The notes under the pieces are model-generated. The model saw nothing but the letters and a program-made list of their open reading frames with translations, was not told the DNA's origin and made no database searches. 64,000 bases of DNA, taken from Sulfobacillus thermosulfidooxidans DSM 9293. Lineage in GTDB: Bacteria > Bacillota > Sulfobacillia > Sulfobacillales > Sulfobacillaceae. Made by a program: the position numbers and the translations under genes. The stretch lies in the NCBI RefSeq assembly GCF_900176145.1, contig NZ_FWWY01000001.1, positions 2,369,595 through 2,433,594 on the forward strand, read 5' to 3'. Positions 14,240 through 22,931 of this stretch are shown here, in pieces (within the stretch, counting starts at the first letter, position 1; each line of letters starts with the position of its first letter).

Positions 14240-14516
14240 TGGACATTTCGATCGCGGCCCTCGCTCAAAGCGGTGAAGCTTTTTCGCGCAAGATGCGATT
14301 CCGCCCCCCAAATTTGGACATTTGCGATCTCTTTCACGCGGATACGCATTGGGACATCATATCAGCCCTACGGGCTGGGACTGGGGGACAGGGCCAGGGC
14401 GTCACCTCGCCCCTGTCCCCCAGTGCAAAAGTCTCGCTTTTCTACACTTTGACGGGCATCCAGGTCGCTTGCCCTCCAGCGACTCGTTGTCGCATCGTCG
14501 CCGGGGACCAAAATTC
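14240..14516. other. Non-coding stretch with a 14-bp perfect hairpin
   Basis: The arms at 14380-14393 and 14411-14424 form a perfect stem (ACTGGGGGACAGGG and complement) with a 17-base loop. A smaller AGCCC/GGGCT hairpin lies just upstream (about 14364-14376). There is no T run, so it is not a standard terminator. It lies between the carboxypeptidase gene and the 3' end of an IS3-like transposase and may be part of a mobile-element end. No gene is supported. Confidence 0.45.
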
Positions 14517-15391
14517 TCAGCTCCCATGCAGCCGATCTTGGTTATAAAAGGCAATCCATCGCGTTATGGCCGCATAGGCCTCGCCATATGTGGCAAATTC
14601 TTGAGTGAGACACTCGCGCTCCAACTGAGCATGCCACGACTCCATCAAGGCGTTTTTATTCGGCGTGGCCACCGGAATGCGTTCATGTTCCAGACCATAG
14701 GTGGCACAAGCCGTTTCGAATGCCTCGGCGATAAACTGGGGGCCATTGTCGGTCCGCAGAACGGGAGGCGTCTGCCATTCCGATTGACGCTGGATCACCG
14801 CGTGTTTTAGGGCTCGCACAACATCCGTCGCCTGACAATGGAGTCCCATGTGGTAGGCAATAATCATGCGGTCACACACATCGATAATGGCTTGGAGATA
14901 TAAAACCGATCCTCACCCGCAATATACACATAGGTAATGTCCGTTTGCCAGAGCTGATTGGGAGCCGTAATGATGCGGTTCCGCGCCAGCCGACGCGGAT
15001 GCCGGATGCGGCGTTTTCGCTGAGGCCATAATAAGTGCCACTGTCGAAGGAGGCGATACACCTTTTTGAAACTAATCTGTAGATGATAGCGTCGTCGCAA
15101 GACCCATGTGATTTTATGATACCCATAGGCCGCATTTTCCGTCGTCAGAATATCGGTAATCCAGTCCATAATCTGGCCATCGGCGATTTTCTGGCCATTT
15201 TGTGTGACGCTGTATCCTCGCGGAGGTCGACCCGGCGCCTGATGGCGCCGATCCGGTTCCCGATGGCGTTGGCGATGACGCCACGCATAAAAGGTAGCCC
15301 GTGAAAGGCGAATCGTCGCACACCATCGGCGAAGGGGCACCTGAGGAGCGCGGTGATGCCAATCCATCACGTGTTCACACAATTCTGTCAC
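14517..15391 (-). pseudogene. IS3-family transposase OrfB, frameshifted (copy A)
   Basis: The DDE integrase subunit of an IS3-family element is broken by a one-base deletion. The 5' part (15391 to about 14890) has an HTH_21-like region and the first catalytic D in WQTDITYVY. The 3' part (from about 14900 to 14517) has the second D in RTDNGPQF and the E in NALMESWHAQLE. At 14898-14902 this copy reads four A where copy B reads five; restoring one base rejoins the frames. The C-terminus stops at DRLHGS, roughly 15 residues earlier than usual for the family. It is unlikely to be active as it stands. Confidence 0.85.
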
Positions 15392-15666
15392 GGACGGATC
15401 CCCTTTTTTTGCAGCAGATCTTGAAGCATAGCAATCTGCAGATCTTTTTCCCCGAGTAATTTCTTTAATCGTTCATTTTCGTCTACCAGACTCATGAGAT
15501 CGTGGGGATGGTGGGCCGCCTTCATCGCCTCACGCACCCAGCGACGCACCATGGATGGACTCAGCTGATGACGACGAGCGACTAATGTCGCATTTTGCGT
15601 GTCTTGAGCTTCTTGAACAATCTGTTGCTTGAATTCCGGTGAATAGGTTTGACTCATCGTGCACAC
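15388..15666 (-). CDS. IS3-family transposase OrfA (copy A)
   Basis: A 92-residue helix-turn-helix subunit (YSPEFKQQIVQEAQ, then ARRHQLSPSMVRRWV) with a C-terminal leucine-zipper-like coiled coil. It overlaps orfB at GTGA. The slippery run A-AAA-AAG just before the orfA stop (about 15402-15411 on the plus strand) is the classic -1 programmed frameshift site of IS3 elements, which would give an OrfAB fusion. This copy is intact. Confidence 0.88.
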   Translation of the reverse strand: MCTMSQTYSPEFKQQIVQEAQDTQNATLVARRHQLSPSMVRRWVREAMKAAHHPHDLMSLVDENERLKKLLGEKDLQIAMLQDLLQKKGIRP

Positions 15667-15739
15667 TCTCTCCTCTGAACTGATAATTATCCTACCAGGA
15701 GAGATCGCGATTGTCTCGTCTTCTTAAGGGGCTTAAAAG

Positions 15740-16608
15740 GTCACACACATCGATAATGGCTTGGAGATATAAAAACCGATCCTCACCCGCAATATACACA
15801 TAGGTAATGTCCGTTTGCCCGAGTGGATTGGGAGCCGTAATGATGCGGTTCCGCGCCAGCCGGCGCGGATGCCGGATGCGGCGTTTTCGCTGAGGCCATA
15901 ATCAGGGTCCCTGTCGAAGGAGGCGATACACCTTTTTGACACGAATCTGTAGATGATAGCGTCGTCGCAAGACCCATGTGATTTTGTGATACCCATAAGC
16001 CGCATTCTCCGTCGTCAGAATATCGGTCATCCCGTCCATCATCGGGCCATCGGCGATTTTCTGGCCATTTTGTGTGACGCTGTATCCTCGCGGAGGTCGA
16101 CCCGGCGCCTGATGGCGCCGATCCGGTTCAGCATGGCGTTGGCGATGACGCCACGCATAACAGGGGGCCCGTGAAAGGCGAGTCGTCGCACACCATCGGC
16201 GAAGGGACACCTGGGGAGCGCGGTGATGCCAGTCCATCACGTGTTCACACCATGCTGTCACGGACGGATCCCCTTTTTTGCAGCAGATCTTGAAGCATGG
16301 CAATCTGCAGATCTTTTTCCCCGAGTAATTTTTTAACCGTTCATTTTCGTCTACCAGACTCATGAGATCGTGGGGATGGTGCGCTGCTTTGACAGCCTCA
16401 CGCACCACACGACGCACCATGGATGGACTCAGCTGATGACGACGAGCGACTCATGGCGCATTTTGCGTGTCTTGAGCTTCTTGAACAATCTGTTGCTTGA
16501 ATTCCGGTGAATAGGTTTGACTCATCGTGCACACTCTCTCCTCTGAACTGATAATTATCCTACCAGGAGAGATCGCGATTGTCTCGTCTTCTTAAGGGGC
16601 TTAAAAGA
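15740..16608 (-). mobile_element. IS3-family insertion sequence, copy B (truncated and decayed)
   Basis: A second copy of orfA plus the first half of orfB in direct repeat with copy A. It carries a nonsense mutation in orfA (GCG CCA TGA where copy A has GCG ACA TTA), loss of one A in the slippery run (six instead of seven), another small deletion and many substitutions. Together these fuse the orfA and orfB remnants into one frame (16420-15902). The orfB 3' half is missing. Its outer end, CTTAAAAG at 16601-16608, is fused into the GPH transporter gene and supplies that gene's stop codon. Confidence 0.85.
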
Positions 16609-17125
16609 TGGCACCCATGACCGTCCATCCCCAATGCCCATAGAGTAATGGTGGGGAGGCGACGCCAATCAATAAGGCAATAACCCCTACGATTTGGCGG
16701 GGAGACTGGGCGCGGGTGCGTTCTCCAATAGTCTGGAACATTTCGGGGAACAAGCTCGTCCAATTCAGAACGACGGTGAGATAGGTCAAGTCAAACAACA
16801 AAACCATGATCAGAAAATACAGGGAGAGTTCCTTCTGCGACACGAGGGGATGCCAAAGCAGGAAGAAAATCAGGCCTAAGGGGATACTCATTCCTGCAAT
16901 ATAAGGAATCCGGCGACCATAACGGCTTTTCGTGCGATCGGAAATTTGTCCAATGAGCGGATTAAGAACCGCATGCCAGACACTTTGAATGGTCATGGCC
17001 AGGGTGATCCCAGTTAGAGGGGCATGTAAATGGTCAATGTAGAAAAAGAGAATAAAGGTCGCAAAGGTTTGACTAAAAATATTGCTACCTAAATTTCCTA
17101 GCGCGTACCATGTGGGGCGGATCAC
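16601..17125 (-). pseudogene. GPH-family sugar:cation symporter, truncated by IS insertion
   Basis: Only the first 174 codons of a protein normally about 450 residues long remain. The N-terminal membrane region matches the glycoside-pentoside-hexuronide symporters: YALGNLGSNIF, then DRTKSRYGRRIPYI, the conserved loop 2-3. The TAA comes from the IS end. The GTG start has a GAGG ribosome site and lies 32 bases after the GH31 stop on the same strand, so the two were one operon. GPH transporters include YihO/YihP, associated with sulfoquinovose uptake, which fits the neighbour's predicted activity. Confidence 0.85.
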
Positions 17126-17157: not shown

Positions 17158-19578
17158 TTATCCCCAGCGTACGATATATTGACGTCTTCGACTATCAGCT
17201 GACGGGTGTAATGTTAAAATTCCTTCCGTCAGTTGAATCGTCTCGGTCATGTCTGGTGCCACGGTGATAGCCTTTGCAAAAGTGTAATGCTTAGGGAAAT
17301 GACTGGCAAAATGGGGAGGCGATAAAAGAGGACCGGGCCTGGCCTCTTTACTGAGGGGCTGATATTGTAAGTCAAGGATTCCGCCGTCGGGTAAAGTAAT
17401 CTGTTGTTGCCACGATGTTTTCGAGACAAAGACATACAGCGCAAGATAATCGAGTGCTTGATGTAAATCGACTCCAGGTCCCGTGGTAATCCGGGCCAGC
17501 GAGTCGACAATACCCTCCATTTGCCACGACCCTCTCTCTGAAGGTGAGGAAAAGGTATCTTCGGTTGGGACGGAATCTGTCAGAGGAACACCTTCCAATA
17601 AAGGGACCACAAAGGGATGGCGGATAAATAATGGTAGTCGGTCTAAAGGCACGGAGCGCTCCACCCACTTTGGTCCTTCGATAATTTCTCCACTCCACCA
17701 ACAACGCCATCGCCCTTCCGGAAGATAAAAGCGGTGGTGTGAAGATTTTCGGGTAAGGACCGGAGCAACGAGTATCCCCTCACCCAACATGAATTGCCGG
17801 TCTAGTCCCCAGCAAATACGATCTGCAGGAAATTCGAGATACATAGGCCGGATGAGGGGAAGCCCTTGATCCGTAGCCACTTTGCTTAGATGATAAAAAT
17901 AAGGATACAAGGAAGTATGGAGGCGCGCGTATTGGGCATAAATAGCCAAGGTTTCAGCATCGCTGTCAAAATGCCAATTTCTCGGGGCGGCTGTTCCATG
18001 ATGCGTTCGCATAACTGGCAACAGGCTGGCCACTTCGAGCCAGCGGAGAAATAACGCTCGGCTGCGCGGCCGTGTCAATCCGAACGTCATATAACCGCCA
18101 ATATCTGTGGCCCAATAGAAGAACCCGGAAATTTGTGCGGATAAGGCCTCAGGAATGACGGTGGGCAAACCATCGGCTTCGCTGAAATCCGTGTCCGAGT
18201 CACCGCCCCAGATTACGGGAGCTAACAGGTGGCTGCCAATCCACCCCGAGCGGACAAAAAAGACAAAGTTCCCGTCTGGACGCTGTTGTTCCCAAAACGC
18301 GCGGTGAATTTTTTGCCATAAGAGCGGGTAACGGTTATGAGATATATGCCCACTAGTCCCATCGGCCAATTGGGCCTCAAGCGGCAGATATTCCCCAAAA
18401 TCGACCATCCATCCATCAAACCCTAGGGCTAAAGCTGGCGATAATAAATAGCGGTGGGTCCATGCCATGGCATTTTCATGCGTGACATCGATTTGCCCAT
18501 GCCGAATGCCCAAAATATTGATGGCCATGACCTCAGCCTTGCTATCTTTAACAAGGATGTCGTCATTAAGGGCTTGACGGTATAAATCGGTGCCATAGGT
18601 AATTTCTGGACAAAAATATCCTAAGAGTCGAAAGCCTTGTTCGTGCAAGGTCCGGGCCAATTGGGGAAGATGAGGATATAGCTCGGTATCGACCGTGTGT
18701 TTTAACGGCCGCATCCAAAATCGGCGACGGTTCTCGTTGGATCCCATCCAGTCCTCAATCCAGATAACGCTAGAGGGAATGCGGTGGCTCCTGAGAAAAT
18801 GAGCGAGGCGTGTAGCCCGTGCCTGACCACGAATACTGTCATTCCATGGAGCTAAGGCCCATGAGGGTACAGAAGCGGGAGGTCCCAATACCGAAAATTG
18901 CCGGGAAAAAATGTCTTTGGGCGTTTGGCCAGTGATAATATGTAGCGTGGTCATAGTGCTCCAAATCGTGGCCTGCCTTTTTGTGTGCGTGAGATTCCAG
19001 CGTATGCGCTCGAAAGACGTAAACCAGGCACTATAGCCAGCTGAACTGAGCCACAGGGGCATAGAGGCATAAGAAGGATAAGGGCCTTTGGGAAAGGGCA
19101 CGAATGGAGCTTTTTTAAGCCATCCTGAGAGCCAACCAAGTCCCACCGGACCTTCTTCGACCCAGCTGTCAAATTGCGCAGGAGGACGGATGCTATGAGT
19201 ATGTTCGCCAAATCCCTGCCATAGTTCTTCAGATGGCGTATGCCATGTGATCCGTAGAAAACCGGCCGCTGAGGTTGTGATTTCGAGTTCTAGATGCCAG
19301 GGATTGATCAGGGTAAGTTTGAAACTCATGGAGTACCTTGTGTCTTGGTGGTATAGATAGATGATTTCCTGTCCAGTTGATTTGCCAGACCTTGTCCATG
19401 AATTCATATCATGAATCTGGGCAAAAGGCATTCGAACAATGTCCCATGCCATAATGTGTTTAATCGAAAGAGGCCCTGGGGTAATATGAGCGCATTCGTT
19501 GAGAGCTAAACACATAATGGGTTCCTGACCGTAGCGGATTTCTAAAGTCGAGTCCTTGACATCCCAGTCAATGGTCAT
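17158..19578 (-). CDS. yihQ: GH31 glycosidase, probable sulfoquinovosidase (YihQ-like)
   Basis: An 806-residue cytoplasmic glycoside hydrolase family 31 enzyme. The nucleophile is D393 in DGWMVDFGEYLP and the acid/base D460 in VIWGGD; their 67-residue spacing equals D405-D472 of E. coli YihQ. The sulfonate-binding signature also aligns: E275 in WIEDW, R285-x-x-W288 and Y496 in TDIGGY. R250 replaces the Gln or Lys of known enzymes, giving R-E-R-W-Y. YihQ-type enzymes release sulfoquinovose from plant and algal sulfolipid headgroups. The start has an AAGGA site. It is cotranscribed with a GPH transporter now broken by an IS. General alpha-glucosidase or alpha-xylosidase activity is the alternative. 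Confidence 0.8.
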   Translation of the reverse strand: MTIDWDVKDSTLEIRYGQEPIMCLALNECAHITPGPLSIKHIMAWDIVRMPFAQIHDMNSWTRSGKSTGQEIIYLYHQDTRYSMSFKLTLINPWHLELEITTSAAGFLRITWHTPSEELWQGFGEHTHSIRPPAQFDSWVEEGPVGLGWLSGWLKKAPFVPFPKGPYPSYASMPLWLSSAGYSAWFTSFERIRWNLTHTKRQATIWSTMTTLHIITGQTPKDIFSRQFSVLGPPASVPSWALAPWNDSIRGQARATRLAHFLRSHRIPSSVIWIEDWMGSNENRRRFWMRPLKHTVDTELYPHLPQLARTLHEQGFRLLGYFCPEITYGTDLYRQALNDDILVKDSKAEVMAINILGIRHGQIDVTHENAMAWTHRYLLSPALALGFDGWMVDFGEYLPLEAQLADGTSGHISHNRYPLLWQKIHRAFWEQQRPDGNFVFFVRSGWIGSHLLAPVIWGGDSDTDFSEADGLPTVIPEALSAQISGFFYWATDIGGYMTFGLTRPRSRALFLRWLEVASLLPVMRTHHGTAAPRNWHFDSDAETLAIYAQYARLHTSLYPYFYHLSKVATDQGLPLIRPMYLEFPADRICWGLDRQFMLGEGILVAPVLTRKSSHHRFYLPEGRWRCWWSGEIIEGPKWVERSVPLDRLPLFIRHPFVVPLLEGVPLTDSVPTEDTFSSPSERGSWQMEGIVDSLARITTGPGVDLHQALDYLALYVFVSKTSWQQQITLPDGGILDLQYQPLSKEARPGPLLSPPHFASHFPKHYTFAKAITVAPDMTETIQLTEGILTLHPSADSRRRQYIVRWG

Positions 19579-19719: not shown

Positions 19720-20032
19720 GAAAACCTCTTCTACGTTTGAATCCCGAATGCACCAATCTTGACGAAGTATCTACCGTTACATTAGACATCGCCCGAAAAT
19801 TGAACCGCGCGATGTATTTTCCCATTTCGGCGGGAACCGAACTATCTACACGATACGATCCCAGTGATGGCTCCGGCCATCCGCAACCGTGGGAGGGATG
19901 AATTGTGAGAATTTGGATAGCCGTTGGGCGCAGAATCGACGGGCGCCGTGATACATATGAAGAAGCAACGCGACAGCGGGAGTTGGTGCTATGCAGAGGC
20001 CGCCATGGGTCAGGCACAAGGAGGCGAAACGC
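19720..20032. other. Left arm of the Tn3-like element, no recognised gene
   Basis: A plus-strand frame is open from about 19699 to the TGA at 19899 (66 codons; includes LDEVSTVTLDIARKLNRAM) and looks protein-like, but it has no clear start or family. An antisense frame (19625-20044) is less convincing. The alkA ribosome site is at the right end. Confidence 0.35.
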
Positions 20033-21001
20033 GTGAATCGGCACACCGTGAGTCTTACCCCCTGTGGCGCCTATGGCTTCGGCCTGGTGCTCGCTTATCT
20101 CCGTACATCACCGTCAGCGATTGTAGAGCGCCTACATGAACACGGATTCCAACGAGCGTTGGATATCAGCTCCGGCGTCGTCGTGGAGGTTGCGCGGGAG
20201 AATCTGCTGTCTGAGGAACCTCTCACCCTGACCATCTGGGGAGAGACGCTCAGCTCAAGCTTGGTTAAGGTCGTCGTCGCGCACATGCGCCGCATGCTCG
20301 TCCTCGACGTTGATGGGGCCGGGGTCGAAACACATCTTAGCACACGGGATCCCGCACTCGGATCCTATGTGCAGCGGCATCGCGGGTTTCGACCCATTCT
20401 CCTCGGGTCGCCATGGGAAGCTCTGCTCTGGGCCGTAGCAGGGCAACTCATTGGAGTCGAACAAGCGCGGGTTATCAAACAGCGACTCGTCGACCGCGGT
20501 GGGCGGACCGTGACAGTGGGAGGAGAGTTGGGGCGTTCTTTTCCTCTTCCTCCGGAACCGTCGTGGGTGATTACGCAGGGGATTGATGCCTTGCGCGCCA
20601 TAGGTTTCAGCCAGACGAAAGCCCGGGCGATCTACGCGGCCGCGGATGCCATCCATGACGGGACCTTAGACCTGAAGCCTACCTTGTCCGCAGCGGATGC
20701 GGCTGCGGCCTTGGCCCAACTGGAGGCAATTCCGGGGATTGGACCATGGACCACGGCTATCGTGGCGTTACGCGGGTTTGGCCATCTTGAGGTACTCCCG
20801 GATGGGGATTCGGGATTGCAAAGCTTCGTTGGCCGCCACGCCAATCCGCGCCGCCGCCTAACGCGCGACGAACTTCGGGCCTGGGGTGAGCGTTGGGTTC
20901 CCTATGGGGGCTGGGCCACCTACTTCTGGTGGCTTCAATTACAGGCGGAGGCCATGGTTCGACGAGCGGTGGCCCTTGATGAAGGGAGGGACTCTGTATG
21001 A
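20033..21001 (+). CDS. alkA: DNA-3-methyladenine glycosylase II, AlkA-like
   Basis: About 322 residues from GTG 20033, which follows AAGGAGG with good spacing. The frame extends upstream to 19991 without a ribosome site. An AlkA N-terminal domain (about 1-110) precedes a HhH-GPD domain with the hairpin LEAIPGIGPWTTAIVALRG and the catalytic aspartate in PDGDSGLQ (about D259). It would excise alkylated bases in base-excision repair. No Ada domain is present. The stop overlaps the next start (ATGA), so it is cotranscribed with the MFS gene. It is cargo of the Tn3-like element. Confidence 0.85.
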   Translation: MNRHTVSLTPCGAYGFGLVLAYLRTSPSAIVERLHEHGFQRALDISSGVVVEVARENLLSEEPLTLTIWGETLSSSLVKVVVAHMRRMLVLDVDGAGVETHLSTRDPALGSYVQRHRGFRPILLGSPWEALLWAVAGQLIGVEQARVIKQRLVDRGGRTVTVGGELGRSFPLPPEPSWVITQGIDALRAIGFSQTKARAIYAAADAIHDGTLDLKPTLSAADAAAALAQLEAIPGIGPWTTAIVALRGFGHLEVLPDGDSGLQSFVGRHANPRRRLTRDELRAWGERWVPYGGWATYFWWLQLQAEAMVRRAVALDEGRDSV

Positions 21002-22182
21002 ACCATCCCCATCGGGAATTTGGGATCGTGGGTTTTGTGTTGGCATGGGTCATGGTAGGTGCCAATGTTCCCGATCCGCTTTACGCCGTGTACGCAGCGC
21101 GTTGGCACTTTGGGACAGCGACGATTACCGCCATTTTTGCGGTGTATGTGGCGTTCCTGATCCCCACTTTGTTGGTGGGAGGCCAATGGTCCGACCAACG
21201 GGGTCGAAAACCAGTAATCACCGCTGGACTCGGATTGGCCCTCGTCGGCGCGCTGGCGTTTCTGGGCGCCCAGGGGGCTGCCTGGCTGTTCTTGGCCCGG
21301 GCGGCCCAAGGCGCCGGGGCTGGCCTTATCTCGGGTGCGGCCACCGCCCATTTAGCGGAATTAGAGGGACCCCGCGGACGGGCGTCACTCGTGGCCACTC
21401 TGGCCACTGGCGGGGGCACGGCAATCGGTCCCTTGTTGGGAGGACTGCTCGCCCAATACGGACCGGAACCCTTGCGCCTGGCCTATCTCATTGTCGTGGT
21501 GGGGTTGGTGGGCGGCGGGCTGGCGTTCGTCCTGCACGTGCGGGAAACGCGGTCACGGGCCTCCGAAACCTTACACTGGATTTGGCCCCGCATTCCCTCT
21601 GGGATCCGTCCGATTTTCTGGTTGGCGGGGGGGACCGCTTTCGCTGTATGGTCCGTGACGGCCTTTTTTATGTCGTTGGCTCCGAGCTACGTGACAGGGC
21701 TCTTGCACGTGTCGAACTGGGCGGTGGCGGGTAGCGTGGTGTTTCTCATGCTCGCCTCGGCTTCGATAACCCAACTCCTCACGCGTGTCATGGATCCTAC
21801 CGTTGCGATGTCGGTGGGGCTTGTTATGATCGTCATGGCGGTCGGCGGCATTGTGCTGGCGGTGCCCGCGCATGCCTTGTGGATGGTTCTCGTTAGTACT
21901 GTGGTGGCAGGCGTCGGGCAGGGTACGGCATTCCTCGGGAGCATGGCCACAGTGACACGCATCGCACCTTCGGATGTCAAAGGCCAAGTGATGTCGAGCT
22001 TCTATGTCGTCATCTATTGCGGTGTCGGAGCACCGGTGCTCGGCATCGGCCTGGCCGCCCAGCAGGTGGGATTATATGACGCGATGTTGTATTATTGGGC
22101 CTTTATTGCTATTGTCGCCTTAGCAGTGCTGGGAGGTCTCTGGGCTCGCCGTCATTGGGTGGCGACGCTAAGGAATCCTTGA
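20998..22182 (+). CDS. MFS drug/metabolite exporter
   Basis: A 394-residue, 12-span MFS protein with the loop 2-3 motif GGQWSDQRGRKPVI and a motif C-like segment (GGGTAIGPLLGGLL) typical of drug-efflux antiporters. The ATG overlaps the alkA stop and follows GAAGGGAGGG. An ArsR-type regulator gene follows 14 bases later, suggesting a regulated resistance module. The substrate is not predictable. Confidence 0.85.
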   Translation: MNHPHREFGIVGFVLAWVMVGANVPDPLYAVYAARWHFGTATITAIFAVYVAFLIPTLLVGGQWSDQRGRKPVITAGLGLALVGALAFLGAQGAAWLFLARAAQGAGAGLISGAATAHLAELEGPRGRASLVATLATGGGTAIGPLLGGLLAQYGPEPLRLAYLIVVVGLVGGGLAFVLHVRETRSRASETLHWIWPRIPSGIRPIFWLAGGTAFAVWSVTAFFMSLAPSYVTGLLHVSNWAVAGSVVFLMLASASITQLLTRVMDPTVAMSVGLVMIVMAVGGIVLAVPAHALWMVLVSTVVAGVGQGTAFLGSMATVTRIAPSDVKGQVMSSFYVVIYCGVGAPVLGIGLAAQQVGLYDAMLYYWAFIAIVALAVLGGLWARRHWVATLRNP

Positions 22183-22196
22183 GGAGGACATAATCC

Positions 22197-22931
22197 GTGA
22201 GCGATCCGGAATTGCATACGGTGGCAGCTCTTATGGGTGACGCATCGCGGGCCACCATGTTGGTCCACCTGATGAGCGGTCGTCAACTCCCCGCTTCGGA
22301 GTTGGCCCGGGCGGCGCGGATCAGCCCGGCCACAGCGAGCGAGCATTTAGCGAAGCTGGTGGCTGGGGGGCTCGTGCAAGTTCGGCGTCACGGACGGCAC
22401 CGTTATTATGCGCTGGCCAGTCCCGAAGTCGCCAAAGTGGTAGAAGGGTTGATGAGTTTGGCCCCGCCGGAACCCGTGCGTTCGCTCAGGACATCGACGC
22501 ACCAAGCTCAATTGCGGGCGGCGCGGACCTGCTACAACCACTTGGCCGGGACACTCGGCACGAATCTGACCGAGGCTATGGTGGTCAAGGGGTGGCTCAC
22601 TTTTGATCCCGTGTATGACGTGTTGGCGCTTACGTCGCGCGGCGAGCAGCAGGCGGCCCAGTGGGGGTGGACACTGGATTTGCACCAGCGCACCCCGCTG
22701 GTGCGCCCGTGCCTGGATTGGAGTGAGCGCCGGTATCACGCAGCCGGCCAAGTCGGCCGAGAATTGGCCGGATGGCTGTTCGCTCAGGGCTGGGTGAGAC
22801 GCACGACGGCGGACCGCATCGTGTGGGTCACAGATGACGGATGTCGTGCCCTGAAAGAGTGGTTTGGGTTGTCCTGGCCTCCCATCACCCACCAAGGTGG
22901 TCAGCTACCGGTCGAGGACCAGGAGGGCTAA
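22197..22931 (+). CDS. ArsR-family winged-helix regulator with C-terminal domain
   Basis: The GTG at 22197 follows GAGGAGG. The N-terminal 85 residues form an ArsR/SmtB-type winged helix (ARISPATASEHLAKLVAGGLVQVRRHGRHRYYAL), without the metal-binding CxC of ArsR or CadC. The remaining 160 residues form an extension found in some ArsR-like regulators, ending in a second winged-helix-like segment. It is the third gene of the alkA-MFS operon and probably represses it in response to a ligand. Confidence 0.82.
   Translation: MSDPELHTVAALMGDASRATMLVHLMSGRQLPASELARAARISPATASEHLAKLVAGGLVQVRRHGRHRYYALASPEVAKVVEGLMSLAPPEPVRSLRTSTHQAQLRAARTCYNHLAGTLGTNLTEAMVVKGWLTFDPVYDVLALTSRGEQQAAQWGWTLDLHQRTPLVRPCLDWSERRYHAAGQVGRELAGWLFAQGWVRRTTADRIVWVTDDGCRALKEWFGLSWPPITHQGGQLPVEDQEG

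Follow-up and report, generated by a model that had tools for sequence, protein, structure and literature searches.

A predicted GH31 glycosidase of Sulfobacillus thermosulfidooxidans placed in a sister clade of the sulfoquinovosidases

Sulfoquinovosidases (SQases) are used as genome and metagenome markers for the utilization of sulfolipids. In Sulfobacillus thermosulfidooxidans, a gene for a GH31 enzyme located at positions 17158–19578 on the minus strand was proposed by a first-pass annotation to carry a complete SQase signature, and it raises the question of whether this enzyme is indeed an SQase or a relative of some other specificity. The stretch of DNA that was analysed (64,000 nucleotides; referred to here as the window) corresponds to G000:C1:2369595–2433594 of a 3.86-Mb genome that is assembled in two contigs, and positions are those of the window unless a contig is named. 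The acidophilic, sulfur-oxidizing setting of this gene is consistent with what is known of the genus (PMC4062416), and our literature search yielded no relevant paper connecting Sulfobacillus with sulfoquinovose (SQ).

The reading frame of this gene is uninterrupted over 806 codons and all of the catalytic residues are present in it. The encoded protein of 806 aa matched the GH31 barrel (PF01055; E value 2.1e-48, 165.8 bits against a cut-off of 23.5) and also the C-terminal domain PF21365, and its N terminus is without a hydrophobic signal. Among solved structures, its top match was YihQ (E value 5.4e-75), followed by other SQases (viz. the Agrobacterium SQase, 8r56 and 6pnr) and then by YicI. 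An AlphaFold2 model built from an input of four sequences had a mean pLDDT of 48.6, which is too poor for arguments concerning the pocket.

Placement of the protein relative to the SQases

Strong orthologues of this protein, showing 43–62% identity, were detected in 27 further Sulfobacillaceae genomes and in two from a related family among the 61 genomes that were searched, and its clade consists of 30 members from these two families. In a careful maximum-likelihood tree, 15 representatives of this clade branched together and 14 rows of the SQase clade formed a separate group, each of them with 100/100 support. The two groups were jointly opposite to YicI and the haloarchaeal sequences in this unrooted tree, again with 100/100 support, and a quick tree based upon all 30 members concurs with these results. 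Placement outside of the SQase clade, which had been named beforehand as an outcome speaking against SQase identity, is thus what the GH31 phylogeny gave, and the protein falls instead in the adjacent sister clade.

Scores based upon sequence profiles lead to the same placement. With the equivalog model for YihQ/SQase (NF007746) the protein scored 391 bits, which is below the cut-off of 553; three full-length SQases scored 948–986 bits and YicI-like proteins at most 268. When family profiles were compared using hhalign, the clade scored 776 to the SQases versus 489 to YicI. In tblastn searches, some haloarchaeal GH31 genes annotated as alpha-xylosidases (from Haloarcula and Halomarina plasmids, with about 31–33% identity in the catalytic domain) scored about as well as the SQases, but a closer kinship with these or with the YicI rows was rejected by both the tree and the profile comparison; unlike members of the clade, the haloarchaeal proteins group with YicI and have an ABC transporter gene alongside. 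Hence, of the proposed SQase identity, the part that holds is that the SQases (viz. YihQ, 5aed/5oht; the Agrobacterium enzyme, 5ohs/5ohy; and Eubacterium rectale SftG, 6pnr) are the nearest characterized GH31 relatives of this protein. The sequence comparisons support its assignment to an uncharacterized sister clade of the SQases rather than to the SQases themselves.

A further GH31 protein, from a genome of the same order (L100; G035:C1:932098–933903), is a deep-branching member of the SQase clade with the motif EQQWY; its N terminus contains a hydrophobic segment resembling a signal or anchor, and it is possibly an exported SQase-like enzyme. Another SQase-like GH31 gene, on plasmid p98 of Entomospira culicis (L145:4004–6007), has an Arg in place of the acid/base Asp and a Ser at the position of Tyr508, and its product may be catalytically inactive.

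Catalytic and signature residues

The catalytic pair was correctly recognized in the first-pass annotation. The predicted nucleophile D393 (18400–18402) and the predicted acid/base D460 (18199–18201), both like the other codons given here on the minus strand, align with D405 and D472 of YihQ and are constant in all 30 members of the clade, which together with the barrel establishes the GH31 membership of the protein. The spacing of 67 residues between them, identical to that in YihQ, is found in 30/30 clade members and in 13/14 SQase-clade rows; it is informative because most of the GH31 rows outside of these two clades, including YicI, have a spacing of 66.

The residues R250 (18829–18831), E275 (18754–18756), R285, W288 and Y496 (18091–18093) are likewise all present and aligned, as had been claimed, with Q262, Q288, R301, W304 and Y508 of YihQ, the positions of which were checked on the MG1655 record sequence; the first two correspond to the SQase positions Q262/K245 and Q288/E270. 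R285 and W288 are part of a loop, R285-R286-F287-W288-M289-R290-P291-L292-K293-H294 (18697–18726), and the register at R285 requires a 3-residue gap just upstream. Since MAFFT and an hhalign alignment of the two family profiles gave identical registers, a chance misregister behind R285 and W288 was rejected. The three positions that presumably contact the sulfonate are therefore occupied by Arg, Trp and Tyr as in the SQases.

The description of this signature as complete, however, could not be confirmed, as it varies within the clade to which the protein belongs. Position 250 is occupied by R in 14, Q in 10 and G in six of the 30 members; position 285 by R in 25, Q in three and K in two; and position 288 by W in 28, with one I and one V. 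W288 is moreover general to GH31, a Trp being present at this position in 34 of the 38 non-SQase rows. E275 and Y496, on the other hand, are constant in all 30 members, and a Tyr at the latter position is common to the clade and the SQases, whereas most other GH31 rows have a Phe. The variation at R285 is not decisive, because YihQ position 301 is a Gln even in L036, a family member whose score exceeds the cut-off for SQases. As judged from these alignments, the five-residue motif is real in this protein, yet its clade does not conserve the motif as a signature. The Arg, Trp and Tyr residues are nevertheless kept jointly in the protein and in 23 of the 30 members, which is more than would be expected if anionic recognition had been lost.

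Other features of the sequence both link the clade to the SQases and separate it from them. An EDW-G insert is present in both groups but not in YicI. In the 13 SQases that were compared, the first two positions of the motif are only Q-Q or K-E and an FG precedes R301, whereas this protein has R-E, and R, Q or G followed by E are found across the clade. In place of the FG-x-R loop of the SQases, the clade has its own RRFWMRPL-H loop, in which R286, F287, R290, P291, L292 and H294 are constant and clade-specific; S280 is also constant in the clade. Further, most clade members have about 776–860 residues compared with 657–686 for the SQases (measured from stop to stop).

Could the protein then be a true SQase with Arg in the first position, which cleaves algal sulfoquinovosyl glycerol, the SQ released either entering an unrecognized route or being exported? 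Its sister position to the SQases, the residues E275, R285, W288 and Y496, and the catalytic spacing all accord with this, as does the motif QERWY in seven of its relatives, which is one step away from both known motifs. However, the protein branches outside of the SQase clade, six members of its own clade have Gly at the first position and the FG that invariably precedes R301 in the SQases is missing. Together with the genomic evidence considered below, these observations make it an improbable explanation, and we regard SQase activity of this enzyme as unlikely.

The neighbouring symporter gene

A GPH-family transporter had also been noted in the operon, and this observation could be confirmed only in part. 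Immediately downstream of the GH31 gene, on the same strand, only the 5′ part of a gene for a GPH-type symporter is left (16604–17125, minus strand; residues 1–173 of about 425). This fragment, in an ORF of 174 aa at 16601–17125, is truncated at 16607 by an insertion sequence. Abutting this fragment is a partial copy of an IS3-type element (15739–16607, minus strand; HTH_21 match and 95% identity by blastn to 14870–15739), which is in tandem with an IS3-type element containing orfA and orfB (14517–15739, minus strand; rve and HTH_21 matches). The remaining half of the symporter (residues 172–422) was found 2.09 Mb away on the opposite strand (G000:C1:297427–298182), adjoining sequence that matches the same IS3-type element. 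Copies of this element flank both halves, at 14290–16607 of the window and at G000:C1:295674–297434 (L113). The sequence GCCATCTT is present at the break in both halves, and these repeats are consistent with a duplication of the target site and subsequent recombination of two copies of the element, although the order of these events is our inference. The location of the halves on opposite strands and 2.09 Mb apart is as would be expected from a large IS-mediated rearrangement (or from a misassembly).

In 16 of the relatives, a GPH gene encoding 387–485 aa follows the enzyme gene. Based upon these comparisons the GH31–GPH pair is real across the relatives but broken in this strain, where no intact symporter gene adjoins the enzyme gene. 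Upstream, AlkA-like, MFS and ArsR-like genes (19991–22931) lie between the GH31 gene and genes for a response regulator and a kinase; the latter two genes directly precede the GH31 gene in three relatives (L065–L067).

The split symporter gene leaves the enzyme without its linked importer, and it could indicate that the GH31 gene is heading for loss in this lineage, the enzyme being stranded and selection upon it gone. In another genome of the same genus (G003; L085, G003:C2 near 41653) all that is left of the GH31 gene is a remnant of 43 residues, some neighbours of which are also found beside the intact gene in relatives. Against such decay, the 806-codon frame is intact with every catalytic residue kept, and another transporter might serve in place of the one that was lost, and we consider it doubtful that the gene is on its way out.

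GPH symporters are also known from Escherichia coli. YihO, like the clade-associated transporters, is a GPH transporter, which is in favour of an SQase, but when those of the clade are aligned with YihO, the identity is only 20–24% in long alignments, and most of them give a higher score with YicJ. The arrangement yicI–yicJ resembles that of the clade, and the FWM motif is common to YicI and the clade. The enzyme may be a conventional alpha-glucosidase or alpha-xylosidase of the YicI/YicJ type, which splits neutral disaccharides inside the cell and in which the SQase-like residues are inherited leftovers. The product of such an enzyme would enter central metabolism without requiring any extra genes, as in this neighbourhood, and the similar scores of the haloarchaeal genes annotated as alpha-xylosidases agree with it. 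In contrast, the tree and the profile comparison set the protein apart from YicI, as do its spacing of 67 rather than 66, the Tyr rather than Phe at 496, the EDW-G insert and a loop rich in invariant cationic residues. A neutral glycosidase is a possibility to be taken seriously, but the balance of the evidence is against it.

Genomic context and possible function

Sulfolipid salvage is possible, but the proposal finds no backing in the surrounding genes. A search of the window's genome covered four families of enzymes by which SQ enters its known pathways, viz. the SQ isomerase families PF07221 (YihS type) and SftI, PF00296 (SmoC type, a luciferase-like monooxygenase) and PF02668 (TauD, dioxygenase type). 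None of the four was present, although a sulfo-ED or sulfo-TK pathway, or a route located elsewhere in the genome, could have escaped this search. Among the annotated neighbours of the clade genes, no SQ-catabolic genes were recognized, and ten neighbour proteins from relatives matched unrelated Pfam families; the other neighbour proteins were clustered, so that the Pfam annotation covers part of these neighbourhoods. By contrast, the locus of an SQase (L097) has genes for an SftI-family isomerase, a PFK-like kinase and a class II aldolase, and a sulfolactaldehyde reductase-like gene. The SQ pathways as such have been described (PMC10755693, PMC12890257, PMC11968277).

SftI-like isomerases were detected in eight of the relatives with scores of 285–320 bits (cut-off 700), and strong matches to the GlcNAc-epimerase family in four relatives only. 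The former were rejected as evidence of an SQ pathway, as four of their loci (L117–L120) look like other sugar clusters and none adjoins the GH31 gene. By their translated starts, these four Sulfobacillaceae clusters contain sulfatase-like and rhamnosidase-like genes, and they possibly serve in the use of a sulfated deoxysugar polymer. With the four entry-enzyme families absent from the genome and the transporter gene broken, catabolism of sulfoquinovose by the GH31 enzyme is not supported by its genomic context.

The explanation that we favour, with a probability of roughly 0.65, is that the gene encodes a cytoplasmic retaining alpha-glycosidase of the SQase sister clade, perhaps acting on an anionic glycoside, whose importer gene has been split. 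The enzyme, which is probably cytoplasmic in view of its N terminus, would cleave the terminal sugar off a small alpha-glycoside through a two-step retaining mechanism with D393 as the nucleophile and D460 as the acid/base. In the usual arrangement, import of the glycoside would fall to the GPH symporter whose gene follows that of the enzyme. Here, the halves of the symporter gene were presumably separated by the arrival of an insertion sequence and a rearrangement after it. The predicted pocket would combine the Arg, Trp and Tyr residues found where SQases presumably bind the sulfonate with an added cationic loop of the invariant residues R286, R290 and H294. An anionic sugar is a plausible substrate because the Arg, Trp and Tyr residues are mostly kept and many of the invariant residues in this loop are cationic. 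More tentatively, the clade may represent, in extreme acidophiles, either a new GH31 specificity for anionic glycosides or a lineage of SQases that supplies an SQ route not yet described, with R286, R290 and H294 forming an anion-binding site.

The results presented here bear upon the use of SQases as molecular markers. As this case shows, an individual member of a sister group can display the five-residue SQase signature, and marker calls should therefore also demand placement within the SQase clade. The clade of 30 sequences provides a ready set for examining the origin of sulfonate recognition in GH31, and should its members prove to act on SQ, acidophiles would join the organisms capable of sulfolipid salvage.
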